The translations under genes were made by a program, and so were the position numbers. DNA of 64,000 nt from Mycobacterium sp. GTDB taxonomy: Bacteria > Actinomycetota > Actinomycetes > Mycobacteriales > Mycobacteriaceae. Below the pieces are notes generated by a model. That model saw only the letters and a program-made list of their open reading frames with translations, had not been told where the DNA came from and did not search any database. Shown here one piece after another: positions 5,053 to 21,245 of the stretch. Location: assembly GCA_020438865.1 (NCBI GenBank), contig JAGQTU010000005.1, positions 1-64,000 of the forward strand, read 5' to 3'. The first letter of the stretch is position 1, and each line of letters opens with the position of its first letter.

Positions 5053-6021
5053 TTGACTGACAGCGGCGACGCGGTGATCCGGATCGGCACCCGGGGTAGC
5101 CTGCTGGCGACCACCCAGGCCGGCACCATCAGGGATCAGCTCATCGAGCGCGGGCACCGCGCCGAACTGGTGATCATCAGCACCGCGGGCGACCGTTCTG
5201 ACCAGCCGGTCGCCGAGATCGGGGTCGGGGTCTTCACCGCCGCCCTGCGCGAGGCGATCCACGAGAACCGAGTCGACATGGCCGTGCACTCGTACAAGGA
5301 TTTGCCGACCGCGCCGGACGCCCGCTTCGTCATCGCCGCGGTACCCCGCCGCGAGGACGCCCGCGACGCGCTGGTGGCCCGCGACGGCCTGGTGCTGGGG
5401 GAGTTGCCGGCCGGATCGGTGATCGGCACATCGTCCGTGCGCAGGGCCGCGCAGCTTAGAGCACTGGGTCTCGGTTTGGAAATCCGCCCCCTAAGAGGCA
5501 ACCTAGATACCAGGTTGAACAGGGTAAGCAGCGGTGTTCTCGACGCCATCGTGGTGGCCCGGGCGGGTCTGGCCCGCATCGGTCGCCTCGGCGATGTCAC
5601 CGAGACGCTGGAGCCGGTGCAGATGTTGCCAGCGCCGGCTCAGGGTGCGCTTGCGGTGGAGTGCCGCGCGGGCGACACCGGGCTTGCGGCGCTACTGGCG
5701 GAGTTGGACGATCCCGACACCCGCGCCGCGGTCACCGCCGAGCGAACCCTGCTGGCCGAACTGGAGGCGGGTTGTTCCGCACCGGTGGGCGCGATCGCCG
5801 AGGTGGTCGAGTCCATCGATGAGGACGGCAACGTCTTCGACGAGCTGTCGCTGCGCGCATGCGTGGCGGCGGCAGACGGATCCGACGTGATCCGTGCGTC
5901 CGGCGTAGGCACGCCCGGCCGCTCCGCAGAGCTGGGGCTCGCGGTGGCCGCGGAGTTGTTCGAGCTGGGCGCGCGCGAGGTCATGTCGCACAGGGCTCCG
6001 CCGACGACCGAGGCGGAGTAG
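5053..6021 (+). CDS. hemC: Porphobilinogen deaminase (hydroxymethylbilane synthase)
   Basis: It joins four porphobilinogens into hydroxymethylbilane. The 322-residue sequence shows [10 protein letters not shown] at the N-terminus, 'HSYKDLPT', 'RAAQLRALG', '[11 protein letters not shown]' and the dipyrromethane cofactor site LEAGC241SAP. TTG 5053, 5 bp after hemA, gives [15 protein letters not shown] 5074 would give VIRIGTRGS, closer to the usual start, and cannot be excluded because neither has a clear Shine-Dalgarno. The next gene follows by 7 bp. Confidence 0.95.
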
Positions 6022-6028
6022 AGCGGGA

Positions 6029-7711
6029 GTGAAGATGACTGGGCACGGAAGCGGACGGGGCCGCAAGGCCAAGCCGGGACGCATCACGTTCGTCGGTTCG
6101 GGTCCTGGTGACCCGGGCCTGCTCACGACACGCGCCCGCACCGTCCTCGCGAACGCCGCGCTGGTGTTCACCGACCCCGACGTGCCGCAGGCCGTGCTGA
6201 CCGTCGTCGGCGCCGACCTGCCCCCGACCGCCGGGCCCGCCCGGGCCGACGCCCCCCGACCGCGGGCCGAGGCCGACGGCGCGGTGGCCGACGAGATCGC
6301 CCCGCCGGTGGTCTCGGTCGGAGCCGACATCCGGCCCGCCCTCGGCGACCCGGCCGAGGTGGCCAAGACCCTGCTGGCCGAGGCCAAGGCCGGTTTCGAC
6401 GTGGTGCGCCTGGTGGCCGGTGACCCGCTGTCGGTGGACTCGGTCATCACCGAGGTCAACGCGGTCGCGCGCAGCCACATGGAGTTCGAGATCGTCCCCG
6501 GCCTGCCCGGCACCAGCGCCGTGCCGTCCTACGCCGGTCTGCCGCTGGGCTCCGCGCACACCGTCGCCGACGTGCGCGGCGAGGTGGACTGGGCCGCCCT
6601 GGCCGCCGCGCCCGGCCCGCTGATCCTCACCGCGACCGCCTCGCACCTGCCCGATGCGGCCCGCATCCTCATCGAGTACGGCCTGGCCGAGAACACCCAG
6701 TGCGTGGTGACCGCCAACGGCACCACCTGTGCGCAGCGCTCGGTCGAGACCACGCTGACCGGCCTGACCGACCGCGCCGCCCTGGCCGGCGGCAACGACC
6801 CGGCCGGCCCGCTGACCGGCACGCTGGTGGTCACCATCGGCAAGACCGTCGCCCACCGGGCCAAGCTGAACTGGTGGGAGAGCCGCGCCCTGTACGGCTG
6901 GACCGTGCTGGTGCCGCGGACCAAGGATCAGGCCGGCGAGATGAGTGACCGCCTGGTCGGTCACGGCGCCCTGCCGGTCGAGGTGCCCACCATCGCCGTC
7001 GAGCCGCCCCGCAGCCCGGCCCAGATGGAAAGGGCCGTCAAGGGTTTGGTCGACGGCCGCTACCAGTGGGTGGTGTTCACCTCCACCAACGCGGTGCGCG
7101 CGGTGTGGGAGAAGTTCGGCGAGTTCGGCCTGGACGCCCGCGCGTTCTCCGGGGTGAAGATCGCCTGCGTCGGTGAGGCGACCGCCGACCGGGTGCGCGC
7201 CTTCGGCGTCAGCCCGGAGCTGGTGCCCTCCGGTGAGCAGTCCTCGTTGGGTCTGCTCGACGAGTTCCCGGAGTACGACAGCATTTTCGACCCGGTCAAC
7301 CGGGTGCTGCTGCCGCGGGCCGACATCGCCACCGAGACGCTGGCCGAGGGCCTGCGTGACCGCGGCTGGGAGATCGAGGACGTCACCGCCTACCGCACCG
7401 TGCGCGCGGCACCGCCGCCGGCCGAGACCCGCGAGATGATCAAGACCGGCGGGTTCGACGCCGTCTGCTTCACCTCCAGCTCGACGGTGCGCAACCTGGT
7501 CGGCATCGCGGGTAAGCCGCACGCCCGCACGATCGTCGCGTGCATCGGGCCCAAGACCGCCGAGACCGCGGCGGAATTCGGCCTGCGGGTCGACGTGCAG
7601 CCCGAGACCGCCGCGGTCGGTCCGCTGGTCGACGCGCTGGCCGAGCATGCCGCCCGGCTGCGTGCCGAGGGCGCGCTGCCCCCGCCGCGCAAGAAGAGCC
7701 GGCGCCGCTAA
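6029..7711 (+). CDS. hemD: Bifunctional uroporphyrinogen-III C-methyltransferase / uroporphyrinogen-III synthase
   Basis: A 560-residue fusion. The N-terminal ~270 residues are a SUMT/CysG-type methylase (VGSGPGDPGLLT near 16-27, 'VRLVAGDP', 'PGLPGTSAVPSYAGLPLG'). The C-terminal half is uroporphyrinogen-III synthase ('GWTVLVPRTKDQAGEMSDRL', 'VFTSTNAVRAVWEKF', 'CFTSSSTVRNLVG'), which closes hydroxymethylbilane to uroporphyrinogen III. The fusion is the normal form in mycobacteria. A low-complexity insert of Ala/Pro/Asp (about 65-100) interrupts the methylase domain. Start GTG 6029 has GAGCGGGAG overlapping upstream; ATG 6035 is an alternative. hemB follows after 14 bp. Confidence 0.94.
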   Translation: MKMTGHGSGRGRKAKPGRITFVGSGPGDPGLLTTRARTVLANAALVFTDPDVPQAVLTVVGADLPPTAGPARADAPRPRAEADGAVADEIAPPVVSVGADIRPALGDPAEVAKTLLAEAKAGFDVVRLVAGDPLSVDSVITEVNAVARSHMEFEIVPGLPGTSAVPSYAGLPLGSAHTVADVRGEVDWAALAAAPGPLILTATASHLPDAARILIEYGLAENTQCVVTANGTTCAQRSVETTLTGLTDRAALAGGNDPAGPLTGTLVVTIGKTVAHRAKLNWWESRALYGWTVLVPRTKDQAGEMSDRLVGHGALPVEVPTIAVEPPRSPAQMERAVKGLVDGRYQWVVFTSTNAVRAVWEKFGEFGLDARAFSGVKIACVGEATADRVRAFGVSPELVPSGEQSSLGLLDEFPEYDSIFDPVNRVLLPRADIATETLAEGLRDRGWEIEDVTAYRTVRAAPPPAETREMIKTGGFDAVCFTSSSTVRNLVGIAGKPHARTIVACIGPKTAETAAEFGLRVDVQPETAAVGPLVDALAEHAARLRAEGALPPPRKKSRRR

Positions 7712-7725
7712 CGCGGAATGCAGCC

Positions 7726-8709
7726 ATGCCCGGTTTCCCCTCGCATCGTCCGCGCCGGCTGAGGTCGACCCCGGCGCTGCGTCGGCTGGTGGCCCAGACA
7801 TCCTTGGAGCCAAGGCATCTCGTGCTGCCGATGTTCGTCGCCGACGGCATCGCCGAGCCCCGCCCGATCTCCTCGATGCCCGGCATGGTGCAACACACCC
7901 GGGATTCACTGCGGCAGGCCGCCGTTGCAGCCGTCGAGGCCGGTGTCGGCGGGCTGATGCTCTTCGGGGTGCCCCGCGACGAGGACAAGGACGCCGTCGG
8001 CTCGTGCGGACTGGACCCGGACGGGATCCTCAACGTCGCCCTGCGCGATCTCGCCAAGGACCTCGGTGACGCCACCGTGCTGATGGCCGACACCTGCCTC
8101 GACGAGTTCACCGACCACGGGCACTGCGGGGTGCTGGACGCCCGTGGCCGCGTGGATAACGACGCCACCAACGCCCAGTACGTGAAACTGGCTGTGGCGC
8201 AGGCGGAGTCGGGTGCGCACGTGGTCGGTCCCAGCGGCATGATGGACGGCCAGGTGGCCGCCATCCGGGACGGCCTCGACGCCGCGGGGTTCACCGATGT
8301 GGTGATCCTGGCCTACGCGGCGAAATTCGCCTCGGCGTTCTACGGCCCGTTCCGCGAGGCGGTGGCCTCCAGCCTGCAGGGCGACCGGCGCACCTATCAG
8401 CAGGACAGCGCCAACGCGCGGGAAGCGTTGCGCGAGATCGAACTCGACATCGACGAGGGTGCCGACATCGTGATGGTCAAGCCGGCGATGGGCTACCTGG
8501 ACATCGTGCGCGCGGCCGCCGACATCTCGCCGGTCCCGGTGGCCGCCTACCAGGTGTCGGGGGAGTACGCGATGATCAGCGCCGCCGCGGCCAACGGGTG
8601 GATTGACGCCCGGGCGGCCGCGCTGGAGTCCCTGACCTCCATCCGGCGTGCCGGGGCCGACATCGTGCTGACGTACTGGGCGGCCGACGTGGCGGGCTGG
8701 CTGGCGTGA
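7726..8709 (+). CDS. hemB: Delta-aminolevulinic acid dehydratase (porphobilinogen synthase)
   Basis: It condenses two 5-aminolevulinates to porphobilinogen. The 327-residue protein has 'RPRRLRSTPALRRLV', 'MADTCLDEFTDHGHCG', YAAK200FASAFYGPFR and MVK252PAMGYLDI; the two lysines are the Schiff-base residues of the family. The zinc-site region keeps only part of the CxCxxxxxxxC pattern, so Mg-type catalysis is likely, as in related actinobacteria. ATG 7726 gives MPGFPSHRPRRL and is the only sensible start after hemD. Its TGA overlaps the GTG of the next gene. Confidence 0.95.
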   Translation: MPGFPSHRPRRLRSTPALRRLVAQTSLEPRHLVLPMFVADGIAEPRPISSMPGMVQHTRDSLRQAAVAAVEAGVGGLMLFGVPRDEDKDAVGSCGLDPDGILNVALRDLAKDLGDATVLMADTCLDEFTDHGHCGVLDARGRVDNDATNAQYVKLAVAQAESGAHVVGPSGMMDGQVAAIRDGLDAAGFTDVVILAYAAKFASAFYGPFREAVASSLQGDRRTYQQDSANAREALREIELDIDEGADIVMVKPAMGYLDIVRAAADISPVPVAAYQVSGEYAMISAAAANGWIDARAAALESLTSIRRAGADIVLTYWAADVAGWLA

Positions 8710-10374: not shown

Positions 10375-11501
10375 CCCTCCAGCACCGGAACCGTCTCCGG
10401 CAGCTTGTAGGTCTCGATGCCGTTGCGGAACATCACCGCCTCGCGGGCGTGCTCCGGCAGGTGCTTGACCAGCCAGCGCGGGTCGTCGAACGTCCAGTGC
10501 GGGTAGTCGGAGGAGAACAGCAGGATCTTCTCGCACTCCATCCATTCGAAGGCCCGCAGCAGTTCGGTCTTGTCCTCCGGGTAGTCCAGCGGCTGGGTGG
10601 TGAACTTGATGTGGTCCTTGACGTACTCGCTGGGCTTGCGCTTGATGTCCACCCAACTCTTGCGCGCCTCGTAGATCGCGTCCATCCGCCACATCAGCGG
10701 CAGGATCCAGTTGAAAGCGTGCTCCACCAACACGATTCGCAATGTCGGGTAGCGGTCGAAGACGCCGTCGAAGATCAGGCTCATCACCTGGTTGGCGGCC
10801 AGCAGCGAGTAGGTGACCATGAAGTCGTGGTTGTAGCTGGGGAAGCCCACCGGCGGGATCGGGAGCGTCTCGTGGGTGCCCCGGGCCAGGTGGCAGCTGA
10901 CCGTGATGTCGTGTTTGGTGGCGGCCGCCCAGATCGGGTCGTATTTCGGGTCGCCCCATGAGGGGCGGGGTTCGGCCTTGATCAGGATCTGCGACATGAA
11001 GGGGTGCCCGGCCCACTTCTCGATCTCGAGCGCCGCACCGGCCGGATCCTCGATGGCCACCGAGATCGATCCGCGCCAGCGCTGGTGCCAGTTGGTCCGG
11101 CTGTCCAGCCAGTGCCGGTCGATCCAGATGTTGGTGGCGATCGCCGAGGCCTGCGCGGCCTCGGGCAGCCGGGCGCCGGCCGCCAACGGCTCGAGGATGG
11201 CGATGTCGGCGCCGGCCTCCATGATCAGCTGGCGGAACATCAGCTCCGGATCACTGCCGGCGAACTCGCCGTCCTGGGGGAAGGTGTCCACCCGCATCGC
11301 GTAGGCATGCGCGTAGTCCGGGGCGTCGTAGTAGATCTTCTCGCCGACCGGGTGCGACAGGAAGTACTTGGTGCGCCACGGCTCGGGGATGTATTCGAGC
11401 AGCACCCCGCGCCGCGGCACCGGGTGCACATCGGAGTCCACACAGCGCACGGCGATGCGTTCGGCCGGTGCGGCCCGCTGTTCGGCATGGGTCAGGGTCA
11501 T
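10356..11501 (-). CDS. Amidohydrolase family (amidohydro_2) TIM-barrel protein
   Basis: A 381-residue metal-dependent hydrolase or decarboxylase. The N-terminal strand has 'CVDSDVHP', the family's metal-binding DxH. Downstream are 'VSCHLARGTHE', 'LRIVLVEHAFNWILPLMWRMD' and 'ILLFSSDYPHWTFDDP', which supply the remaining His/Asp ligands. The subgroup is common in mycobacteria, where the substrate is usually unknown; aromatic or carboxylate decarboxylation is one option. I chose ATG 11501 with GGAGG about 11 nt upstream over GTG 11522. It diverges from the copper ATPase gene with about 60 bp between them. Confidence 0.85.
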   Translation of the reverse strand: MTLTHAEQRAAPAERIAVRCVDSDVHPVPRRGVLLEYIPEPWRTKYFLSHPVGEKIYYDAPDYAHAYAMRVDTFPQDGEFAGSDPELMFRQLIMEAGADIAILEPLAAGARLPEAAQASAIATNIWIDRHWLDSRTNWHQRWRGSISVAIEDPAGAALEIEKWAGHPFMSQILIKAEPRPSWGDPKYDPIWAAATKHDITVSCHLARGTHETLPIPPVGFPSYNHDFMVTYSLLAANQVMSLIFDGVFDRYPTLRIVLVEHAFNWILPLMWRMDAIYEARKSWVDIKRKPSEYVKDHIKFTTQPLDYPEDKTELLRAFEWMECEKILLFSSDYPHWTFDDPRWLVKHLPEHAREAVMFRNGIETYKLPETVPVLEGQTRVF

Positions 11502-11535
11502 TCCACCAGTGTCCTCCCTCACCCGCCCTTGACGG

Positions 11536-11554
11536 TATACCCCCTAGGGGTATA
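11536..11554. promoter_or_regulatory. CsoR-type copper operator TATACCCC-CTA-GGGGTATA
   Basis: Two exact 8-bp arms with a 3-bp centre match the pattern bound by CsoR/RicR copper-sensing repressors. The right arm overlaps the -10 (TATAGT, 11551-11556) of the copper ATPase gene, the ideal position for Cu-relieved repression. No csoR gene lies in the window. Confidence 0.85.
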
Positions 11555-11556
11555 GT
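11551..11556 (+). promoter_or_regulatory. -10 element TATAGT of the copper ATPase gene
   Basis: TATAGT ends 7 nt before ATG 11564, so the mRNA should be leaderless. It overlaps the right arm of the CsoR-type operator. Confidence 0.65.
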
Positions 11557-11563
11557 TCGCGAT

Positions 11564-13735
11564 ATGGCGACGACGGATCTCCAGCTGACCGGGATGAGCT
11601 GCGCGTCCTGCGCCGCGAAGATCGAGCGCAGCCTCAACGATCTGGACGGTGTGCAGGCGACGGTGAACTTCGCCGTGGAGCGCGCGCACGTCGAGCACGG
11701 CGCACAGGTCTCCGAGCACGACCTGATCCACGCGGTGGAGAGCACCGGCTACCACGCCTCGGTGATCGACCACTCCGGCATGGGCGAGAACCACATGAAC
11801 CACGACGTACCCACCGACCAGCTGCGCCCGCGGTTGATCGGTTCGGCGGTGCTGGCGCTGCCGGTGCTGGCGCTGTCGATGGTGATGCCGTGGCAGTTCC
11901 CCGGCTGGCAGTGGGTGGTGCTGGCGCTGACGACGCCGATCGTGGTGTGGGGCGGCTACCCGTTCCACAAGGCCGCGCTCAACAGCGCCCGGCACGGCTC
12001 GTCGACGATGGACACCCTGGTCTCGATCGGCACGCTGGCCGCGTACGTGTGGTCGGCGGTCGCGGTCGTGACCGGAGCCGCCGGGCCGGCGACATCGGGC
12101 GCCGGAGCCGCCGGGCCGGCGACATCGGGCACCGGAGCCGGCCATGTCTACTTCGAGGTGGCCGCCGCCGTGACGGTCTTCCTGCTGGCCGGCCGCTACG
12201 CCGAGGCCAAGGCCAAGCGCTCGGCCGGCGCCGCCCTGCAGGCGCTGCTGTCGCTCGGCGCCAAGGACGCCGTGGTGCTGCGCGACAGTGGTGGTGCCGA
12301 GGCCGAGGTCCGGATCCCGGCCGCCGAGCTGCGCGTGGGCGACGTGATCGTGGTCCGTCCCGGCGAACGGGTCGCCACCGACGGCGTCGTGGTCGACGGC
12401 GCCTCGGCGCTGGACACCTCGGCGATGACCGGCGAGTCGGTGCCGGTCGACGTCGGCCCCGGCACCGAGGTCCTCGGCGGTGCGGTCAACACCTACGGCC
12501 GAATCCTGTTGCGCGCCAACAAGGTCGGCGCCGACACCCAGCTGGCCCGGATGGCCCGGATGGTCTCCGACGCGCAGAGCGGCAAGGCCTCGATCCAGCG
12601 GCTGGCCGACCGGGTGTCCGCCGTCTTCGTGCCCGCCGTGCTGATCATCGCGGCGGTCACGCTGGCCGCCTGGCTGCTGTCCGGGCATTCGGCGGCCGCC
12701 GCGTTCACCGCGGCCGTCGCGGTGCTGATCATCGCCTGCCCGTGCGCGCTGGGCCTGGCCACCCCGACCGCGATCCTGGTCGGCACCGGCCGCGGTGCGC
12801 AGCTCGGTGTGCTGATCAAGGAGCCGCAGGTGCTCGAGACGGTCCGCGGTATCGACACCGTCGTGCTGGACAAGACCGGCACCGTCACCTCCGGTGCGAT
12901 GAGCGTCGCGCAGGTAGAGGGCGGAGTCGAGGGGGCGGATTCCGACACCGTGCTGGCCCGCGCCGCCGCGGTCGAATCTGCCTCCGAACACCCGGTGGCC
13001 GCCGCGATCGTGGCCGCCGCCCGCGCCCGCGGCCTGGCCGTCCCGCCGGTCACCGACTTCGTCAACGAGCCGGGCACCGGCGTGCGTGGGGTGGTGGACG
13101 GGGTGACCGTGCGGGTGGCCCGGGCGTCGGACGACGACGGCCGCACGAGCGTCGCCGTCAGTTGGGACGGTGCGCAGCACGGGGTGATCCGGCTGGTCGA
13201 CGCCGTGAAGCCCAGCAGCCCCGAGGCCATCGCCGAGCTCAAGGCGATGGGCATCACCCCGGTGCTGCTGACCGGTGACAACGCCGCCGTCGCGGCGCGG
13301 GTGGCCGCCGAGGTGGGCATCGAGGCCGACGACGTGATCGCCGGCGTGCTGCCGTCGGAGAAGGCCGACGTGATGAAGAAGCTGCAGGCCGACGGGCGCC
13401 AGGTCGCGATGGTGGGCGACGGTGTCAACGACTCCGTGGCGCTGGCCACCGCCGACATCGGGATGGCGATGGGCACCGGCACCGACGCGGCGATCGAGGC
13501 CGGCGACATCACACTGGTGCGCGGCGACCTGCGCACCGTGCCGACCGCGCTGCGGCTGTCGTCGCGGACGCTTCGGATCATCAAGCAGAACCTGTTCTGG
13601 GCGTTCGGCTACAACGTCGCGGCGATCCCGCTGGCGGCGCTGGGCTTGCTGAACCCGATGATCGCCGGCGCCGCGATGGCGGTGTCGTCGGTGTTGGTGG
13701 TGACGAACAGCCTGCGGCTCAGACGGTTCCACTGA
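11564..13735 (+). CDS. Copper-exporting P1B-type ATPase
   Basis: A 723-residue pump that uses ATP to move Cu(I) out of the cytoplasm. It has one N-terminal heavy-metal domain with GMSC13ASC16, then a short Met/His-containing linker (HSGMGENHMNH) and eight membrane helices. The intramembrane metal site is C392-P-C394 (IIACPCALGLATP). The actuator loop has MTGESVPVD, the phosphorylation site is D436KTGT, and the hinge is 'VGDGVNDSVALA'. It resembles mycobacterial CtpV/CtpB. A 30-bp tandem duplication adds ten residues to an external loop. The CsoR-type operator and leaderless -10 support copper induction. No chaperone or csoR gene adjoins it. Confidence 0.93.
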   Translation: MATTDLQLTGMSCASCAAKIERSLNDLDGVQATVNFAVERAHVEHGAQVSEHDLIHAVESTGYHASVIDHSGMGENHMNHDVPTDQLRPRLIGSAVLALPVLALSMVMPWQFPGWQWVVLALTTPIVVWGGYPFHKAALNSARHGSSTMDTLVSIGTLAAYVWSAVAVVTGAAGPATSGAGAAGPATSGTGAGHVYFEVAAAVTVFLLAGRYAEAKAKRSAGAALQALLSLGAKDAVVLRDSGGAEAEVRIPAAELRVGDVIVVRPGERVATDGVVVDGASALDTSAMTGESVPVDVGPGTEVLGGAVNTYGRILLRANKVGADTQLARMARMVSDAQSGKASIQRLADRVSAVFVPAVLIIAAVTLAAWLLSGHSAAAAFTAAVAVLIIACPCALGLATPTAILVGTGRGAQLGVLIKEPQVLETVRGIDTVVLDKTGTVTSGAMSVAQVEGGVEGADSDTVLARAAAVESASEHPVAAAIVAAARARGLAVPPVTDFVNEPGTGVRGVVDGVTVRVARASDDDGRTSVAVSWDGAQHGVIRLVDAVKPSSPEAIAELKAMGITPVLLTGDNAAVAARVAAEVGIEADDVIAGVLPSEKADVMKKLQADGRQVAMVGDGVNDSVALATADIGMAMGTGTDAAIEAGDITLVRGDLRTVPTALRLSSRTLRIIKQNLFWAFGYNVAAIPLAALGLLNPMIAGAAMAVSSVLVVTNSLRLRRFH
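12072..12131 (+). repeat. 30-bp in-frame tandem duplication inside the copper ATPase gene
   Basis: Two near-identical 30-bp units (12072-12101 and 12102-12131) encode Gly/Ala/Pro/Thr/Ser-rich decapeptides (GAAGPATSGA, GAAGPATSGT) between membrane helices. A third partial unit follows. The length suggests slippage and possible strain-to-strain length variation. Confidence 0.85.
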
Positions 13736-13853: not shown

Positions 13854-14108
13854 TCAGTCGCTGCCGGGGCAGTCGAGGTCGACGTACGCGGTGGGGGCCG
13901 ATCGATGCACCCCGGTGACCGTGCACTGCGCCAGCGCCCCGTTGGGCTGGCCGTTGAGCTGGACGTTGTACCCCTGGGCCTGGAGGTCGCTGACGACATC
14001 GGTCGCCGAGTCGGTGGCCCTGGCGGCGGCAGCGGCGGTGGCCGGCCAGGCGGTCAACCCCGCCGTGAGTACCGCGGCAACTCCAATTGCTTTGTGACAC
14101 TTGCTCAT
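13854..14108 (-). CDS. Small secreted protein
   Basis: An 84-residue protein with a Sec signal peptide (MSKCHKAIGVAAVLTAGLTA, then an Ala-rich stretch; cleavage probable around residue 28-30). The mature part has two cysteines, at 'AQCTVTG' and 'DLDCPGSD', that could form a disulfide. The segment 'VVSDLQAQGYNVQLNG' is typical of a small secreted mycobacterial family whose role is unknown. ATG 14108 lies 29 bp after the Rieske gene on the same strand. Confidence 0.75.
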   Translation of the reverse strand: MSKCHKAIGVAAVLTAGLTAWPATAAAAARATDSATDVVSDLQAQGYNVQLNGQPNGALAQCTVTGVHRSAPTAYVDLDCPGSD

Positions 14109-14137
14109 ACATCTAGATAGCCGCTCGGGTTACGCCG

Positions 14138-14833
14138 TCAGGTCGACCTGCCGACCGGAGCCAGCACCTCGACGGCGCCCTCATGTTCGCGAACACCGAA
14201 GTGCGGCAATGGTTTCGGCGCGATCGGCAGCGCGTGGGTCAGCACCTCGCCGGCCGGCGAGAAGGATGTCGAGTGGCAGGGGCAGCGCAGCCGGACCGCG
14301 GCCTGGTCCCACCACAGCCGGCAGCCCTGGTGGGTGCACGCCCCGGAGACGGCCTCGACGCGCCCGTTGACCCGGCGGACGAACCCGGACACCGAGCCGA
14401 GGTCGAACGCACGCACCTCGCCTTCGTCCAGTTCGGCAGCGTCGAGTACCCGCTGCCAGGAGCCGTCGGTCGGCACCACCTCGTCACCGGCGACGGCCTC
14501 CGGGCCGGGGGCGTGCGCGGCCGACAGCACCCGGTCGACCGAGAATGCGGCGACCGCAACGGTCGCCGCAGCGGTGGCGCCCACGATCACCTGCCGCCGG
14601 TTCGGTGTCGAAGCGGTGGCGTTCGCCGGGGGCGAGTCCGACATCTCCTCGGCGAGCCTGACCTTCAATTGGTCTAGAAACTCCGGGCGGGGGTCGCCCG
14701 CCCCCTCCCGCGCGGCGGCGAGCTCGATCGCGGTGTGGATCTGCGCCGCCTCGAACTCGTCCGCGGTGAACGGCCTGGGCTGCCGCTCGGCGAGCAGGTC
14801 GTCGATGTAGTCGCGCAGTTCGCGGCGGCTCAT
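14138..14833 (-). CDS. Membrane-tethered Rieske [2Fe-2S] protein, candidate redox-sensing anti-sigma factor
   Basis: A 231-residue protein in three parts. Residues 1-68 are a charged helical cytoplasmic segment. Residues 79-100 (NRRQVIVGATAAATVAVAAF) form a twin-arginine-like signal or anchor. Residues 120-231 are a complete bc1-type Rieske domain: C166-T-H168-Q-G-C171 and C184-P-C186-H187, with C166/H168/C184/H187 as expected cluster ligands and C171/C186 as the disulfide. It overlaps the ECF sigma gene by 4 bp. That coupling and the small N-terminal domain before a membrane segment are the layout of anti-sigma factors, so I infer a sensor that reads extracytoplasmic redox state. A plain electron-transfer role remains possible. 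'AHA' near 106-108 could be a cleavage site. Confidence 0.78.
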   Translation of the reverse strand: MSRRELRDYIDDLLAERQPRPFTADEFEAAQIHTAIELAAAREGAGDPRPEFLDQLKVRLAEEMSDSPPANATASTPNRRQVIVGATAAATVAVAAFSVDRVLSAAHAPGPEAVAGDEVVPTDGSWQRVLDAAELDEGEVRAFDLGSVSGFVRRVNGRVEAVSGACTHQGCRLWWDQAAVRLRCPCHSTSFSPAGEVLTHALPIAPKPLPHFGVREHEGAVEVLAPVGRST

Positions 14834-15345
14834 CGGGTCGGCCCGTCGTCGATCTGCGCGGCCAGCCGCAGGGCGCGGTGCTGAAGCACCTTCGCGTTGG
14901 CGACGCTGACACCGAGGTCACGCGCCGCCTCCCGGACCGAACGACCCTGCAGGAAGCGCAGTTCCAGTACTCGTCGGTAGTTGTCGGGAAGGCGGTCGAG
15001 GACCGCGGCCACCCGCTCGGGCGCGGTGCTGGACGCGCCGTCACCGTCGGTCGCCGCGGTCTGCTCGTCGATCGTGGTGATCTCGCGGCCCATCGTGGCG
15101 CGCCAGTGCGCGGCGAGCACCGTGCGCGCGGTCGCCCGCAGGTAGGCGCGGACCTCCGCGACACTGGCGGTCAACCGCAGCGGCCGCATTGCGGCCAGGA
15201 AGACCTCGGAGGTCAGGTCCTCGGCGTCGGCGCGATTGCCGACGCGGGCGAAGATCGTCCGGTACACCCACACCGCGTTGTCCTCGTAGACGGCCCGCCA
15301 GTCGGGGTAGCAGGTGTCGGCCACCAGCCGAAGCTCCGGCCTCAT
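14830..15345 (-). CDS. ECF-type RNA polymerase sigma factor
   Basis: A 171-residue sigma-70 family protein with only regions 2 and 4. Region 2 spans about 22-85 ('WVYRTIFARVGNRADAEDLTSEVFLAAM' pattern) and region 4 about 115-165 ('LDRLPDNYRRVLELRFLQGRSVREAARDLGVSV', a helix-turn-helix for the -35). It is translationally coupled to the Rieske protein, its probable regulator. It diverges from the cupredoxin operon over 101 bp, which would be the natural target. I did not find a convincing matching pair of ECF promoter elements there, so autoregulation is inference. Confidence 0.9.
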   Translation of the reverse strand: MRPELRLVADTCYPDWRAVYEDNAVWVYRTIFARVGNRADAEDLTSEVFLAAMRPLRLTASVAEVRAYLRATARTVLAAHWRATMGREITTIDEQTAATDGDGASSTAPERVAAVLDRLPDNYRRVLELRFLQGRSVREAARDLGVSVANAKVLQHRALRLAAQIDDGPTR

Positions 15346-15446
15346 GAATGCCGCCTCTCGTCGCGCACCTCGGCGCTGTAACCGCCGCCGTATCTGTAGG
15401 TGACACGTTCCAATCCCCGAATCCGGTTCAGTCCAGGAGGCAATTC

Positions 15447-15833
15447 ATGCACCCACCCCATCGGGCGGCGTTGGTCTTCCTCGGTGTCGCCGCCGCGGTG
15501 GCCGCCTGCTCGGCGCCGGGCAGTTCGGCACCGCTCGTGGTACCCGCGTCGGTCACGACCGCGACATCGGTTGCGCCGGTTGCGGGTTCCACAGTCAACA
15601 TCTCGGACATGGCGTTCGCCCCGCCGGCGCTGAGCGTGAAGGTGGGGCAGACCGTCACCTGGGTCAATCACGACGAGGAGCCGCACACCATCGCTGCGGG
15701 AGACGGCTCGTTCCACTCGCCGGGCATGGCCGCGAACGGTGTCTTCAGCTTCACCTTCACCAAGCCGGGCACCTACGACTACGTCTGCAGCATCCACCCG
15801 TTCATGCACGGCAGCGTGACGGTGACGCCGTGA
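15447..15833 (+). CDS. Cupredoxin-domain lipoprotein (type-1 copper protein)
   Basis: A 128-residue exported blue-copper-type protein. A lipobox ends at C21 (VAAAVAAC), so the mature protein should be lipid-anchored. After a Ser/Thr/Val-rich linker the plastocyanin-like fold begins at 'MAFAPPALSVKVGQTVTWVN'. Copper ligands are H80 (EPHTI), C114, H117 and M120 (VCSIHPFMHG). The start is fixed by AGGAGG at 15435-15440, 6 nt before ATG 15447. It is the first gene of a three-gene operon divergent from the sigma/Rieske pair and probably passes electrons or copper outside the membrane. Confidence 0.9.
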   Translation: MHPPHRAALVFLGVAAAVAACSAPGSSAPLVVPASVTTATSVAPVAGSTVNISDMAFAPPALSVKVGQTVTWVNHDEEPHTIAAGDGSFHSPGMAANGVFSFTFTKPGTYDYVCSIHPFMHGSVTVTP

Positions 15834-16762
15834 GCCCCGATCATGACCCGGCGACCATGTCGCGGCGCCAACTCATCCGGCACGGCGCCTGGTTCGGCGC
15901 CGCGGTGGGCCTGACCGTGGTCGGCGGTGAGGTGCTTTCGCACCTGGCGTCGGCGGCCCCGACCGCGCAGCCGGCCGGGGCCACGCTGCGTTTCGCTCAG
16001 GTCAGCGACAGCCACATCGGATTTCACGGCGCCGCCAACCCCGATGTCGTCGACTCCTTCGGCCGGGCGATCACCGCGATCAACCATCTCGGCTATCGCC
16101 CGGACTTCGTCATCCACACCGGCGACCTGACGCACCTGTCCACCCCGGAGCAGTTCGACCAGGTCAAGCAGATGATGGGCGGCATCAACGCGCCCCAGGT
16201 GTTCACCGTGCCCGGCGAGCACGACTCGGTCGACGACGCCGGGCAGAAGTACCGGGCCGCCTTCGGCGCGGGCAGTCGCGGTGACGGCTGGTACAGCTTC
16301 GACGTCGGAGGCGTCCACGTGATCGGCCTGGTGAACACCCTCAACCTGAACAAACTCGGCCATCTCGGCGTCGACCAATTGGAGTTCGTCGAGAAGGACG
16401 TCGCACCGCTGACGTCGGACACCCCGATCATCGTCTTCACCCACATTCCGCTGTTCGCGATGTACCCGGACTGGGGGTGGGGCACCGATGACGCCGCGCA
16501 GGCGCTGAACCATCTGCGTCGGTTCTCGTCGGTGACCTGTCTGAACGGCCATGTGCACCAGGTGTTTTCCAAGACGGAGGGCAACGTCACGTTCCACAGC
16601 GCCACCACGACGGCCTACCCGCTGCCGCACCCCGGCGACGGGCCCGCGCCCAAGCCGATCACGCTGCCGGCGGGCGCCCTGCAGGATGCGCTCGGCATCC
16701 GCGAGGTGACCTATGTCAAGGGACAATCGCAGCTCGCGCTCAAGGAGGAGAAGCTCGGATGA
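15830..16762 (+). CDS. Tat-exported metallophosphoesterase
   Basis: A 310-residue calcineurin-like phosphoesterase. The N-terminus has SRRQLIRHG (R12/R13) followed by a hydrophobic core, a twin-arginine signal. The metal-binding blocks are D60-S-H62, GD99LTH, PGEHD (129-132, where Glu replaces the usual Asn of GNHD), 'FTHIPLF' and NGHVHQ. The GNHD-to-GEHD change removes the usual Asn metal ligand, so catalysis may be altered. GTG 15830 overlaps the cupredoxin stop and the 3' end overlaps the membrane-protein gene by 4 bp. Substrate unknown. Confidence 0.87.
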   Translation: MSPDHDPATMSRRQLIRHGAWFGAAVGLTVVGGEVLSHLASAAPTAQPAGATLRFAQVSDSHIGFHGAANPDVVDSFGRAITAINHLGYRPDFVIHTGDLTHLSTPEQFDQVKQMMGGINAPQVFTVPGEHDSVDDAGQKYRAAFGAGSRGDGWYSFDVGGVHVIGLVNTLNLNKLGHLGVDQLEFVEKDVAPLTSDTPIIVFTHIPLFAMYPDWGWGTDDAAQALNHLRRFSSVTCLNGHVHQVFSKTEGNVTFHSATTTAYPLPHPGDGPAPKPITLPAGALQDALGIREVTYVKGQSQLALKEEKLG

Positions 16763-17136
16763 GCAGGCTGATCGATCTCGCCATCGGCGCCGCACTCCTG
16801 ACCGGCGCGGTCAGCCACGGCTACCTCTATATCCATGGCTACCAACATATTCCGGCGATCGGACCAGGGTTCCTGGCCCTGGCCAGTGGGTCCGCCACGC
16901 TGGCCGTGCTGATCGCCCTCGGCGGTCCGTGGTGGTTGCGCGTGCTGGCCTTCGTCGCCTCGCTCGGCGCGCTGGTCGCGTTCGGGCTCTCCCGCACCGT
17001 CGGCGTGTTGGGGTTCGTCGAACGCGGCTGGCAGCCGATACCGCATGCGGCGCTCAGCGTGGTCGCCGAGGCGGTCGTCGTGGTGCTCTGCGTCGCCGCC
17101 CTCGTCCCGCGGGTCGCCGGCGGCAGTCGCTCGTAG
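16759..17136 (+). CDS. Four-helix membrane protein
   Basis: A 125-residue protein with about four membrane helices and two His-rich first-loop positions ('SHGYLYIHGYQHIPAIG'). Histidines near membrane edges could bind haem or metal, but that is speculative. ATG 16759 overlaps the metallophosphoesterase stop. The last residues (GGSRS) and the TAG stop are contributed by copy C of the dispersed 19-bp repeat, so the native C-terminus may have been reset by that element. Confidence 0.75.
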   Translation: MSRLIDLAIGAALLTGAVSHGYLYIHGYQHIPAIGPGFLALASGSATLAVLIALGGPWWLRVLAFVASLGALVAFGLSRTVGVLGFVERGWQPIPHAALSVVAEAVVVVLCVAALVPRVAGGSRS

Positions 17137-17266: not shown

Positions 17267-17881
17267 TTGGCGGCCAAGCGAATCCATACCGGGCGGCGGC
17301 CCGGGGCCACCACCACGCGCGCGCTGATCGGTGACGCCGCCCGAAAGCAGTTCGCCGAACTGGGTTATGACCGCACCTCGATCCGCTCGGTCGCCAAACA
17401 GGCCGAGGTCGACCCCGCGCTGGTGAAGCACTTCTTCGGCACCAAGTGGGAGCTGTTCCTGGCGGTCGTGGAGCTCCCGCTGGACCCGCCGGCGCTCATC
17501 GAGACGGTGGTGACGGGCGATCAGGCGCTGGTGGGCCGGCGGCTGGCCGCGGCGCTGATCGACATCCTCGACGACGAACGCCGCCGGCGTCCGATGCTGA
17601 GCATGATCCGCGCCGCCACCTCCGAGCCGGCGGCCGCGGTGCTGGTGCGGGAGTTCCTGACCCGAAACATCCTGGAGCCCATCGCCGAACGGCTCGGTGC
17701 GGCCGACGCCCGGTACCGGGCCGGGCTGGTGATGTCGCAGATCGTCGGCTTCACCATGTCGCGCTACGTGGTGGCCCTGCAGCCGTTGGCGAAGCGATCC
17801 CGCGACGACCTCATCGCCGACCTGGGGACCACCTTCCAGCACTACCTGCGGGGCGAGCTCGGGCCGGGAGGCGGCCGATGA
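17267..17881 (+). CDS. TetR family transcriptional regulator
   Basis: A 204-residue repressor. The N-terminal helix-turn-helix is 'IGDAARKQFAELGYDRTSIRSVAKQAEVDPALVKHFFGTKWELF' (about residues 18-62), classic TetR. The C-terminal ligand domain shows 'MIRAATSEPAAAVLVREFLTR'. I chose TTG 17267 because GAGGGG lies 7 nt upstream; GTG 17243 is an in-frame alternative without a ribosome site. Its stop overlaps mmpS, so it most likely controls its own mmpS-mmpL operon. The inducing ligand is unknown. Confidence 0.9.
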   Translation: MAAKRIHTGRRPGATTTRALIGDAARKQFAELGYDRTSIRSVAKQAEVDPALVKHFFGTKWELFLAVVELPLDPPALIETVVTGDQALVGRRLAAALIDILDDERRRRPMLSMIRAATSEPAAAVLVREFLTRNILEPIAERLGAADARYRAGLVMSQIVGFTMSRYVVALQPLAKRSRDDLIADLGTTFQHYLRGELGPGGGR

Positions 17882-18324
17882 GGAAACCCCCGGTCGGCCG
17901 CCTGCTGGCGCGCCGGTGGACGGTACTGGTCGCCGTGGTGGTGGTCGCGGTGGCGGGCTTCGCGGTCTATCGCCTGCACGGCATCTTCGGATCGCACAAC
18001 AACGTCTCGGCCGACGGCGCGCTGCCCAACGACAACACCGCGTCCACGCCCAAGCATGTCGTCATCGAGGTCTTCGGCGACCCGGGTGCGCACGCCACCA
18101 TCACCTACCTCGACGTCAACGCGCAGCCGCAGCGCGTCGACAACGCCCGGCTGCCGTGGTCCTACGACGTCACCACCACCCAGCCCGCCGTCTTCACCAA
18201 CGTTGCGGCCCAGGGCAACAGCGATTCCCTGGGCTGCCGCATCACGATCGACGGCGCGGTCAAGGACGAACGCACCGTCAACACGTTGAACGCCTACACC
18301 TACTGTCTGGAGAAGTCCGGGTGA
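17878..18324 (+). CDS. MmpS family accessory protein
   Basis: A 148-residue protein with a short basic N-terminus, one membrane helix (WTVLVAVVVVAVAGFAVYRLH, about 19-39) and a periplasmic beta domain with 'VVIEVFGDPGAHATITYLDVNAQPQ' and two cysteines ('LGCRITIDG', 'AYTYCLEKSG'). These are the hallmarks of MmpS, which assists MmpL in lipid or siderophore export. ATG 17878 overlaps the TetR stop; its own stop overlaps mmpL. The paralogue number cannot be assigned from sequence alone. Confidence 0.9.
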   Translation: MRKPPVGRLLARRWTVLVAVVVVAVAGFAVYRLHGIFGSHNNVSADGALPNDNTASTPKHVVIEVFGDPGAHATITYLDVNAQPQRVDNARLPWSYDVTTTQPAVFTNVAAQGNSDSLGCRITIDGAVKDERTVNTLNAYTYCLEKSG

Positions 18325-21245
18325 GCGAGCATCAAGCCCAGCACAGTCCCGTGGTGCACCGCATCGCCCGCGGCATCCGGTGGTTCTCGGTGCCCATCGT
18401 CCTGGTGTGGCTGCTCATCGCCGCGACGACCAACGTCTTCGTCCCGCAACTCGAGGACGTCGGCAAGGCCCACAACGTCTCGCTGATCGCGGCGGACTCG
18501 CCCGCGCTGCAGGCGATGAAGCGGATGGGCAAGGACTTCCACGAGTTCGACTCGGACAGCATCGCGATGATCGTGCTCGAGGGCGAGCAGCCGCTGGGCG
18601 CCGAGGCGCACCAGTACTACGACACGCTGGTCCGCAAGCTGACCGCCGACACCAAACACGTGCAGCACATCCAGGACTTCTGGGGCGACCCCCTGACGGC
18701 GGGCGCGGCCCAGAGCAACGACGGCAAGGCCGCCTACGTGCAGGTGAATCTCGCTGGTAACCAAGGGGATTCACTGTCGCTGCAGTCGGTCGACGCGGTG
18801 CGCGACATCGTCGACCACACCCCGGCGCCGCCGGGCGTCAAGACCTACGTCACCGGCGCCGCGCCGCTGTTCGCCGACCAGCTCTCGGTCGGCAGCCGCG
18901 GCATCGGCAAGGTCACCGTCATCACCATCCTCGTGATCATGGCGATGCTGCTGTTCATCTACCGATCCATCTCGGCCGCGGTGGTGACCCTGCTGACGGT
19001 GCTCGTCGAGATGTCGGCCGCGCGCGGCATCGTCAGCCTGCTCGCCGACTCCGGCGTCATCGGGCTGTCCACGTTCGCCACGAACCTGCTCACCCTGCTG
19101 GTGATCGCCGCCGGCACCGACTACGCGATCTTCCTGGTCGGTCGCTACCACGAGGCCCGCCAGCTCGGCGAGGACCGCGAAACCGCCTTCTACACCATGT
19201 ATCACGGCACCGCGCACGTAATCCTGGGCTCCGGCCTGACCGTGGTCGGCGCGGTGTCGTGCCTGAGCTTCACCCGGTTGCCGTACTTCCACAGCATGGG
19301 TCCGCCCGCCGCCATCGGGGTGGCGGTCGCGTTGGTCGCCGCGCTGACGCTGGCGCCCGCCGTGCTGACCGTCGCCTCGCTGTTCGGGCTCCTGGAACCG
19401 CGGCGTTCGATGCGCACCCGCACCTGGCGGCGCATCGGCACCGCCGTGGTGCGCTGGCCCGGGCCGGTCCTGTTGGTCAGCCTCGGCATCGCCCTGATCG
19501 GCCTGCTCGCCCTGCCCGGCTACAAGACCAGCTACGACCAGCGGCGCTATCTGCCCGGCAGCGCCCCGGCCGTCGCCGGCTACGCCGCCGCCGAACGGCA
19601 CTTCTCCCAGGCCCGGCTCAACCCGGAACTGCTGATGATCGAAGCCGACCACGACATGCGCAACCCGGCCGACATGATCCTGCTGGAACGGGTGGCCCGG
19701 TCGGTCTTCCACACCGCGGGCATCGCCGAGGTGCAGTCGATCACCCGGCCGCTGGGCACCCCGCTGGATCACACGTCGCTCGGCTTCCAGCTCGGCGCGC
19801 AGAGCGTCGGCCAGGTCCAGAACCTGCCGTTCCAGCAGGCCCGCGCCGCCGACATCCTCAAGCAGGTCGCCGAGATCGACACCTCGATCGAAACCCTCAA
19901 GCAGCAACTCACCCTGCAACAGCAGGCCAACGCGGCCACCGACGAACAGGCCAGGGCGTTCCACGAAACCGTGGCGATCGCCGAGGATCTGCGCAACAAG
20001 ATCGCCAACTTCGACGACTTCCTGCGTCCGCTGCGCAACTACTTCTACTGGGAGCCGCACTGCTACGACATCCCGGCGTGCGCGGCGGTGCGCTCGGTGT
20101 TCGACGCGCTCGACGGGCTCGACGCGCTCACCGACCAGTTGGGCAATGTCACCGCCAGCCTGGACAAGCTGACGGCGCTGCAGCCGCAACTGCTCGCGCT
20201 GATCCCGAAGCAGATCGCCAGCCAGGAGGCCAACCGCGACCTGGCCATGACCAACTACGCCACCAACTCCGGGATCACCGCCAACAGCGCGGCCAACCTG
20301 GACAACGCGGGCGCCATGGGCAAGGCGTTCGACGCCGCCAAGACCGACGACTCGTTCTACCTGCCGCCCGAGGCGTTCACCAACCCCGAGTTCCAGCGCG
20401 GGCTGAGGCTGTTCCTGTCCCCGGACGGCAAGTCCGCCCGGCTGATCATCACCCACGATGGGGATCCGGCGACCCCCGACGGCATCGCCCACATCGCCGC
20501 CATCCGCAACTCCGCCAAGGACGCGGTCAAGGGCACCCCGCTCGGAAACGCCAACATCTACCTGGCCGGCACCGCGTCCACCTACAAGGACATCAGCGAG
20601 GGCGCGAAGTACGACCTGATGATCGCGGCGATATCGGCGCTCAGCCTCATCCTGCTGATCATGGTGTTCGTCACCCGAAGCCTGGTGGCCGCGCTGGTCA
20701 TCGTTGGCACGGTGGCACTTTCGCTGGGTGCCTCGTTCGGGCTGTCGGTGCTGCTGTGGCAGGACATCCTGGGCACCCCGCTGTACTGGATCGTGCTGGC
20801 GCTGTCGATCATCCTGCTGCTGGCGGTCGGCTCGGACTACAACCTGTTGCTGATCTCCCGGTTCCGGGAGGAGATCCACGCCGGCCTGAACACCGGCATC
20901 ATCCGCGCCATGGTGGGCTCCGGTTCGGTGGTCACCTCGGCGGGCCTGGTGTTCGCCGCCACCATGGCCGCCTTCGCATTCAGTGATCTGCGGGCCATCG
21001 CCCAGGTCGGCACCACGATCGCGCTCGGCCTGCTGTTCGACACCCTGATCGTGCGCTCGTTCATGACGCCGTCGATCGCGGCGCTGCTCGGCCGCTGGTT
21101 CTGGTGGCCGCAACGGGTCCGTCCCCGGCCCGCGAGCACGATGCTGCGGCCGTACGGCACCCGGTCCTCGGTGCGCCAGCTGCTGCTGTGGGACGACGAC
21201 GATGACGTGCAGCACCAACCCGCCCCGGCCGAGGAGCGCCGATGA
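18321..21245 (+). CDS. MmpL family RND lipid transporter
   Basis: A 974-residue inner-membrane transporter with two RND halves. Proton-relay Asp-Tyr pairs are visible at D267-Y268 (AGTDYAIFLVGRYHEAR) and D839-Y840 (GSDYNLLLISRFREE). Between the halves, residues about 510-650 form a long Gln-rich coiled-coil region ('ETLKQQLTLQQQANAATDEQ') with two Cys (HCYDIPACAAV), the extended periplasmic domain of MmpL4/5-type proteins. GTG 18321 overlaps mmpS. Cargo is probably a mycobacterial glycolipid or siderophore; drug efflux is possible because TetR-mmpS-mmpL operons often affect susceptibility. Confidence 0.94.
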   Translation: MSEHQAQHSPVVHRIARGIRWFSVPIVLVWLLIAATTNVFVPQLEDVGKAHNVSLIAADSPALQAMKRMGKDFHEFDSDSIAMIVLEGEQPLGAEAHQYYDTLVRKLTADTKHVQHIQDFWGDPLTAGAAQSNDGKAAYVQVNLAGNQGDSLSLQSVDAVRDIVDHTPAPPGVKTYVTGAAPLFADQLSVGSRGIGKVTVITILVIMAMLLFIYRSISAAVVTLLTVLVEMSAARGIVSLLADSGVIGLSTFATNLLTLLVIAAGTDYAIFLVGRYHEARQLGEDRETAFYTMYHGTAHVILGSGLTVVGAVSCLSFTRLPYFHSMGPPAAIGVAVALVAALTLAPAVLTVASLFGLLEPRRSMRTRTWRRIGTAVVRWPGPVLLVSLGIALIGLLALPGYKTSYDQRRYLPGSAPAVAGYAAAERHFSQARLNPELLMIEADHDMRNPADMILLERVARSVFHTAGIAEVQSITRPLGTPLDHTSLGFQLGAQSVGQVQNLPFQQARAADILKQVAEIDTSIETLKQQLTLQQQANAATDEQARAFHETVAIAEDLRNKIANFDDFLRPLRNYFYWEPHCYDIPACAAVRSVFDALDGLDALTDQLGNVTASLDKLTALQPQLLALIPKQIASQEANRDLAMTNYATNSGITANSAANLDNAGAMGKAFDAAKTDDSFYLPPEAFTNPEFQRGLRLFLSPDGKSARLIITHDGDPATPDGIAHIAAIRNSAKDAVKGTPLGNANIYLAGTASTYKDISEGAKYDLMIAAISALSLILLIMVFVTRSLVAALVIVGTVALSLGASFGLSVLLWQDILGTPLYWIVLALSIILLLAVGSDYNLLLISRFREEIHAGLNTGIIRAMVGSGSVVTSAGLVFAATMAAFAFSDLRAIAQVGTTIALGLLFDTLIVRSFMTPSIAALLGRWFWWPQRVRPRPASTMLRPYGTRSSVRQLLLWDDDDDVQHQPAPAEERR

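Follow-up and report, generated by a model that had tools for sequence, protein, structure and literature searches.

A Rieske-domain protein encoded beside an extracytoplasmic function sigma factor in Mycobacterium: a candidate membrane-anchored anti-sigma factor

We analysed a stretch of 64,000 nucleotides from Mycobacterium sp. (assembly GCA_020438865.1, contig JAGQTU010000005.1, positions 1 to 64,000), here called the window, in which a gene for an extracytoplasmic function (ECF) sigma factor runs into a gene for a Rieske-domain protein that we propose to be its anti-sigma factor. The two genes share ATGA, a 4-bp overlap, and an operon for a cupredoxin, a metallophosphoesterase and a small membrane protein diverges from them 101 bp from the sigma start. 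Both arrangements had been described in an earlier reading of the bare sequence (the original prediction), and the coordinates, the overlap, the open reading frames and the Pfam families agree with it. Absent from that prediction were a target motif and a motif-bearing gene for a small secreted protein (13854-14108, minus strand) just after the Rieske gene. The features, including those of the twin-arginine translocation (Tat) type, are as follows.

14830..15345, minus strand: ECF sigma factor gene, 171 aa (open reading frame list, Pfam)
14138..14833, minus strand: Rieske-domain protein gene, 231 aa, proposed membrane-anchored anti-sigma factor (open reading frame, Pfam, relatives)
14636..14833, minus strand: N-terminal domain, residues 1-66, proposed sigma-binding domain
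14594..14599, minus strand: twin arginine R79-R80 of the Tat-type anchor
14531..14593, minus strand: weakly hydrophobic membrane segment, ending near D100-R101
14156..14461, minus strand: Rieske [2Fe-2S] domain, residues 125-226
14273-14338, minus strand: Rieske ligand stretch, residues 166-187
14116..14133, minus strand: motif GTAACC-N8-TATC before the small secreted gene, the only match of this pattern in the genome
13854..14108, minus strand: small secreted protein gene, 84 aa, ATG 25 nt after the G of GTAAC
15378..15394, plus strand: motif GTAACC-N7-TATC before the cupredoxin operon, the only match of this pattern in the genome
15447..15833, plus strand: cupredoxin lipoprotein gene, amicyanin-like, below the amicyanin cut-off
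15830..16762, plus strand: Tat-signal calcineurin-like metallophosphoesterase gene
16759..17136, plus strand: small membrane protein gene, no family found

In Pfam the sigma protein matched Sigma70_r2 (E 1.3e-8) and Sigma70_r4_2 (E 3.6e-12), and region 3 was not listed, which together with its short length is what is found for an ECF sigma factor. The same scan identified Rieske (E 2.7e-12, residues 125-198), Copper-bind (E 7.8e-12) and Metallophos (E 3.3e-11) in the Rieske protein, the cupredoxin and the phosphoesterase, respectively, and gave no family for the small membrane protein. The likely start of the cupredoxin is 15447, though the mechanical open reading frame opens at 15348. From its N-terminus the Rieske protein consists of a domain of about 66 residues (the N-domain), a linker, R79-R80, the weakly hydrophobic segment and the Rieske domain.

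To describe the locus across genomes we used 165 loci chosen by the Rieske protein alone, of which five are duplicates, leaving 160 unique loci; 80 of the places came from a genus search, among the matches listed, besides the loci given with the search, and a 166th locus (L122) was left out as it had a weak match and no sigma match. In 164/165 loci the gene immediately upstream of the Rieske gene is that for sigma, with the 4-nt overlap in 152, so that the conserved adjacency for which the original prediction had suggested a survey is indeed found. In the fetched stretches a cupredoxin accompanied the pair at 142 loci (114 in the direction of sigma, 28 on the other strand) and a phosphoesterase at 141; less frequent were the membrane protein (123 loci), the small secreted protein (33) and DoxX (11). 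Some match to Rieske was seen in 73 of 148 relatives; 41 of the 148 carry a close homologue, which is full-length in 40 and without the N-domain in one. Around these homologues the sigma gene again immediately precedes, and cupredoxin, phosphoesterase and small membrane protein are encoded on the opposite strand or else follow the pair on its own strand. Within the genus it is common, with a match in 169/396 genomes; one carrier of the module is the soil actinobacterium Mycolicibacterium sphagni (L031). Matches were also seen in families f5, f8 and f13 of the same order, in a further three families of the class (f27, f30, f32) and in one genome of another class of the phylum. When 393 genomes of the class were searched with the Rieske-protein profile there were 28 matches, 24 of which we read as the module; 15 of these module genomes belong to three other families, and in the 13 that were fetched the sigma gene was upstream in all 13, with a cupredoxin in nine and a phosphoesterase in seven. 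Conversely, a profile of the sigma subgroup (E < 1e-30), scored in each genome on the top candidates of a first look only, detected 23/296 genomes of the class, and all 23 were among the Rieske-positive ones. A gene placed directly after its sigma gene and kept with it (164/165 loci; 23/23 genomes) has the position of an anti-sigma gene, and the comparison supports the Rieske protein as a constant neighbour of this sigma subgroup. A chance neighbourhood was rejected because the pair recurs across the genus, in other families and in another class.

In genome G057 both the sigma gene and the N-domain are gone from the locus (L055), while the twin arginine, the anchor, the Rieske domain, the cupredoxin and the phosphoesterase remain, and this joint loss, although one case, is expected if sigma and the N-domain form one working unit.

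Some unusual arrangements were also seen. A glycine-rich stretch, presumably PGRS-like, borders the L055 deletion at about 5500-6000. In the genome of the other class, G988, a single sigma gene precedes a tandem of two Rieske proteins, both of which have an N-domain, and the motif is kept (L344, about 6004-8205). Three sigma/Rieske pairs are found in one metagenome-assembled genome, RYN_164 (L035, L036, L037), with one of the sigma genes apparently shortened.

The sigma and cupredoxin genes have a common upstream motif, TGTAACC-N7-CTATC (also TGTAACCc-N6-CTATc), the core of which was fixed by the search pattern used. It was found within 300 bp of 144/158 sigma genes and 137/138 cupredoxin genes, compared with 0/160 Rieske and 0/137 phosphoesterase genes, and dinucleotide shuffles gave means of 0.15-0.25 and at most 2. 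In ten of the 14 loci where sigma has no motif, doxX is in the stretch, and the motif precedes doxX in all seven that were inspected. The strict form, TGTAACC-N7-CTATCT, was present in 23/41 relatives with a close homologue and in 0/107 without (Fisher p 4e-16), and its reversed control in 2/148 relatives. The genome of the window (90.9% complete) has two sites, one for each spacing, and both are in the module. Sites away from sigma precede a cupredoxin/phosphoesterase pair (L142), a PPE-family gene by Pfam (L135; L140 and probably L128 are alike), genes for small secreted proteins (L145, L146) and, in L127, nothing recognised. In other lineages the motif also stands before DoxX genes and, at L113, before a gene for a Tat-signal protein that matches PAP2 weakly. 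A protein similar to that of L113, which we take to be haloperoxidase-like, is encoded close to the G988 module. Other than the sigma and PPE genes, the recognised outputs look exported or membrane-bound. Conservation of the module, the pairing and the target motif are thus all brought out by comparison of genomes, and the motif is specific enough to propose regulons from genomes.

The motif has an odd geometry. In 60/137 cupredoxin, 17/29 small secreted (including that of the window, 14104-14133) and 4/11 DoxX genes that carry the motif, the distance from the G of GTAAC to an open, in-frame ATG is exactly 25 nt. The next commonest place accounts for 17, 3 and 2, and in many of these cupredoxin genes the ATG begins a good lipoprotein signal peptide. 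Sigma genes do not show this fixed spacing. With the ATG at 25 nt the transcript would begin at or before the ATG, which would place TATC at the -10 position; GTAACC would then stand only 7-8 nt upstream of TATC, nearer than a usual -35 box allows. That three unrelated kinds of gene keep one fixed distance points to leaderless transcription and to a promoter whose elements stand unusually close together. At 16-17 nt from GTAAC there is also a weaker block rich in G that would fit a BldN-type promoter layout; as a promoter element it would put the start inside these genes.

We compared the N-domain with known anti-sigma domains and with the proteins encoded after BldN-type sigma genes; from 20 BldN-family loci 15 partner proteins were used, and five with off-frame or very short open reading frames were left out. 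An N-domain profile of 159 loci aligned with nine BldN-sigma partner domains (f25, f27, f28) with a score of 27.8 over 60 colinear columns (HHalign probability 55%), whereas the 68 slices taken from six other families reached at most 19.5. With a smaller N-domain profile, 0/200 column-shuffled controls reached the observed 25.2. For comparison, six presumed Streptomyces RsbN proteins (f31) scored 30.8 against the same nine domains. A search of 246 genomes with the N-domain gave 18 strong matches, all at the N-termini of Rieske proteins, and 14 weak ones, three of which belong to genes that immediately follow a BldN-like sigma (165-177 bits to TIGR02952, below the cut-off of 206); in the other 11 the window's sigma was unmatched in the fetched stretch, and most are by eye unrelated or off-frame. 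Common to the N-domain and the BldN-partner domains is a core in the last helix, P-x-x-E-F-x-x-x-L-x-x-R-L, and according to excerpts of PMC7406223 it is the last helix of class I and class III anti-sigma domains that contacts sigma region 2. Helix periodicity against shuffles supported the first helix (0.0025), weakly the third (0.086) and not the second (0.92). Residues 1-75 are free of Cys in 158/160 loci, and since the HxxxCxxC motif of zinc anti-sigma factors occurs in 0/160 and no Pfam or NCBIfam model is reached, identity with the class I zinc type was rejected. The best family matches of the N-domain profile (E 0.0029 and 0.025) and the candidate structural relatives 2wzv (E 0.081) and 6f3t (E 1) were taken as chance. 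The resemblance of the N-domain to domains encoded after BldN-type sigmas, themselves inferred anti-sigma factors, is therefore supported by these profiles, and its placement near class III (RsbN-type) is unproven.

The original prediction of a complete bc1-type Rieske domain stands for the ligands and the disulfide cysteines and has to be modified for the surroundings of the cluster. The window protein has C166, H168, C184 and H187 together with the pair C171/C186, and the arrangement CxHxxC-12-CPCH (motifs CTH[QL]GC and CPCH, 12 residues apart) is kept in 160/160 loci. At the places of bc1 Ser163 and Tyr165, by our own matching of the numbering, there is Thr in 153/160 and Phe in 160/160. 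In bc1 Rieske proteins these two residues hydrogen-bond the cluster and tune its potential, and the disulfide marks the high-potential type, as described in excerpts of PMC12445004 and PMC10715153. The domain is accordingly, by its sequence, a modified high-potential Rieske domain and not a plain bc1 one, and with Phe and Thr in place of the Tyr and Ser a somewhat lower cluster potential is expected. Bc1 and b6f Rieske proteins, among them the actinobacterial QcrA, are alike in cluster motifs, disulfide pair and Tat-type anchor; unlike them, the window protein is far below the QcrA and PetC cut-offs, has the N-domain in place of extra membrane helices and lacks the hydrogen-bonding Tyr. That it is itself the bc1 subunit QcrA was rejected, as it scored 22 bits against a cut-off of 275 (NF050121) and no bc1 genes were among the identified neighbours.

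The twin-arginine-like membrane segment of the original prediction is borne out, with R79-R80 and a hydrophobic segment in 160/160 loci. It ends near D100 (D in 144/160) and R101 (R in 142/160), the mean hydropathy of the anchor is 1.54 and a positive charge follows it in 150/160, so that the sequence has the twin arginine, the weakly hydrophobic segment and the Sec-avoidance charge of a Tat substrate. Actinobacterial Rieske proteins are exported folded by Tat and carry Sec-avoidance features, according to excerpts of PMC5449189, and the anchor here resembles these.

Taken together, these results suggest that the Rieske protein is a membrane-anchored anti-sigma factor with an outer Rieske sensor, which frees sigma upon a change in its cluster and thereby switches on motif-marked targets; we give this a probability of roughly 0.72. 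The adjacency of the sigma gene, the converse search, the shared motif, the likeness to BldN partners and the joint loss in G057 speak for the pairing, so that comparison gives good support to sigma and anti-sigma as a pair and to their targets. We infer sigma binding, export, cluster loading, lack of cleavage and the nature of the signal. Residues 1-66 would keep sigma bound in the cytoplasm, probably as a class III (RsbN-type) domain does, and the twin-arginine segment would serve as an uncleaved anchor, the Tat route placing the folded and cluster-loaded Rieske domain outside the membrane. A change in the cluster (redox state, loss or failed assembly) would then free sigma by conformational change or proteolysis, and free sigma would drive TGTAACC-N7-CTATC promoters, which in this genome would be those of the cupredoxin/phosphoesterase/membrane-protein operon and of the small secreted protein. 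A more specific version is that the outer cluster is a reversible redox gate, that the cupredoxin exchanges electrons with it and so closes a feedback loop, that the guard, being loaded with its cluster inside before Tat export, also reports Fe-S supply, and that the promoter is compact and often leaderless; as a whole we consider this version doubtful.

Several observations weigh against the anti-sigma reading. The N-domain reaches no anti-sigma model cut-off in Pfam or NCBIfam, the lone anti-sigma match of the whole protein, NF052375, is far below its cut-off (12.8 vs 100 bits, E 0.088), and among solved structures the N-domain profile has no convincing match. Another column rule shrinks the best match to BldN partners to 24.8 over 41 columns, and against the six presumed Streptomyces RsbN proteins alone the score is 10.9, which is not significant. 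Mean-field covariation in 158 pairs (about 38 effective pairs at 80% identity, 88 at 90%) did not distinguish sigma/N-domain from sigma/Rieske domain; 10 of the top 20 cross-protein pairs, but 36 of the top 100, involved the N-domain, which makes up 29% of the positions. An AxA follows the anchor in 84/160 loci, and a possible cleavage there would part sensor from sigma. The motif spacing misfits an ordinary ECF promoter, and in the window's own genome reversed controls match once and twice, so that the number of sites is not above chance and only their placement is telling. Finally, the window's own sigma gene is without the motif and is probably not autoregulated by it. The original prediction as a whole is supported in part; for the cupredoxin operon as the output, the comparison gives a module-specific motif common to sigma genes and operon.

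The alternative that survives best retains the anti-sigma function and changes the signal. Here the protein would be stable and membrane-placed only with the [2Fe-2S] cluster inserted and the folded domain exported by Tat, and shortage of iron or Fe-S, or a blocked Tat route, would free sigma. This fits the strict retention of the twin arginine and the ligands (160/160) and the folded export of actinobacterial Rieske proteins, for which excerpts of PMC5449189 speak, but the outputs identified are copper and other envelope proteins and not genes for iron uptake or Fe-S assembly. We hold this to be possible, although rather unlikely.

The Rieske protein could instead be the electron-transfer partner of the cupredoxin, made together with sigma and not inhibiting it, in which case the N-domain would have another task and sigma would be controlled in some other way. 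Rieske and cupredoxin domains can be redox partners, and the cupredoxin accompanies 142/165 loci. It was, however, unseen in 23/165 fetched stretches, some of them short, whereas sigma was missing in one. Moreover, the N-domain resembles those of BldN partners, it was lost with sigma in G057 where the Rieske domain and the cupredoxin stayed, and Pfam shows no regulatory extension on sigma itself, which makes a purely electron-carrying role improbable. A reading in which the motif is that of a different transcription factor, sigma being just co-regulated with the operon, would suit the close elements implied by the 25-nt spacing, yet it is very improbable given that the strict motif is found in 0/107 relatives without a close homologue and that the neighbouring TetR gene, the only kind of regulator covered in the survey of neighbours, is not kept with the module.

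The membrane-anchored anti-sigma factor proposed here can be compared with known systems. The best solved relative of the sigma protein is 6dxo_A (E 9e-15), presumably sigma-BldN, and its nearest NCBIfam model is that of BldN, TIGR02952, below the cut-off. Like sigma-BldN and RsbN of Streptomyces, the pair has a partner gene just downstream, coding for a protein with a single membrane segment, a short N-domain and a similar last helix. It is unlike them in its outer domain, which is Rieske here and DUF5667 in the lone BldN-partner protein scanned, in its Tat-type anchor and in its match to presumed Streptomyces RsbN alone; the targets also differ, as BldN with RsbN reportedly controls chaplins and rodlins, compared with envelope and redox proteins here. 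Reportedly, RsmA of Streptomyces coelicolor is a [2Fe-2S] anti-sigma-M factor and thus likewise an anti-sigma factor with activity dependent on such a cluster, but it is said to be cytoplasmic and RsbW-like, lacking a Rieske fold, a membrane anchor and an outer sensor. Many class I anti-sigma factors (zinc or non-zinc, such as RseA, RskA, RsrA and ChrR, taken as a group) combine a cytoplasmic N-domain, a membrane helix and an outer sensor, according to excerpts of PMC7406223, and the Rieske protein would have the same layout, with the differences in zinc motif and model matches given above.

We regard the module as a candidate variant of the ECF sigma/anti-sigma kind, with a Rieske domain probably on the outer side. 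In line with the original prediction, which knew of no characterised Rieske-type anti-sigma factor, none was among the matches listed in searches of the open literature, and in excerpts of a 2021 review (PMC8103513) 102/157 ECF groups are called unstudied. If the proposal is true, this would be the first anti-sigma factor with a Rieske [2Fe-2S] outer sensor known to us. It would open a direct approach to the way in which redox conditions outside the cytoplasm are read by actinobacteria, and it points to a function for proteins in which nothing but the Rieske domain is recognised.

Around the module, a TetR-family regulator (Pfam) and two further genes, which we take to be MmpS and MmpL, occupy 17273-21245; they adjoin the module and are not kept with it. 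On the other side a P-type ATPase gene (11468-13735, plus strand), presumably CopA-like, is convergent with the module, has no motif and is a neighbour in eight related loci. Within the operon, the phosphoesterase (15830-16762) reads PGEHD, as does its relative at L142, where we take GNHD/E to be the usual metallophosphoesterase motif, and a metal ligand is possibly changed.

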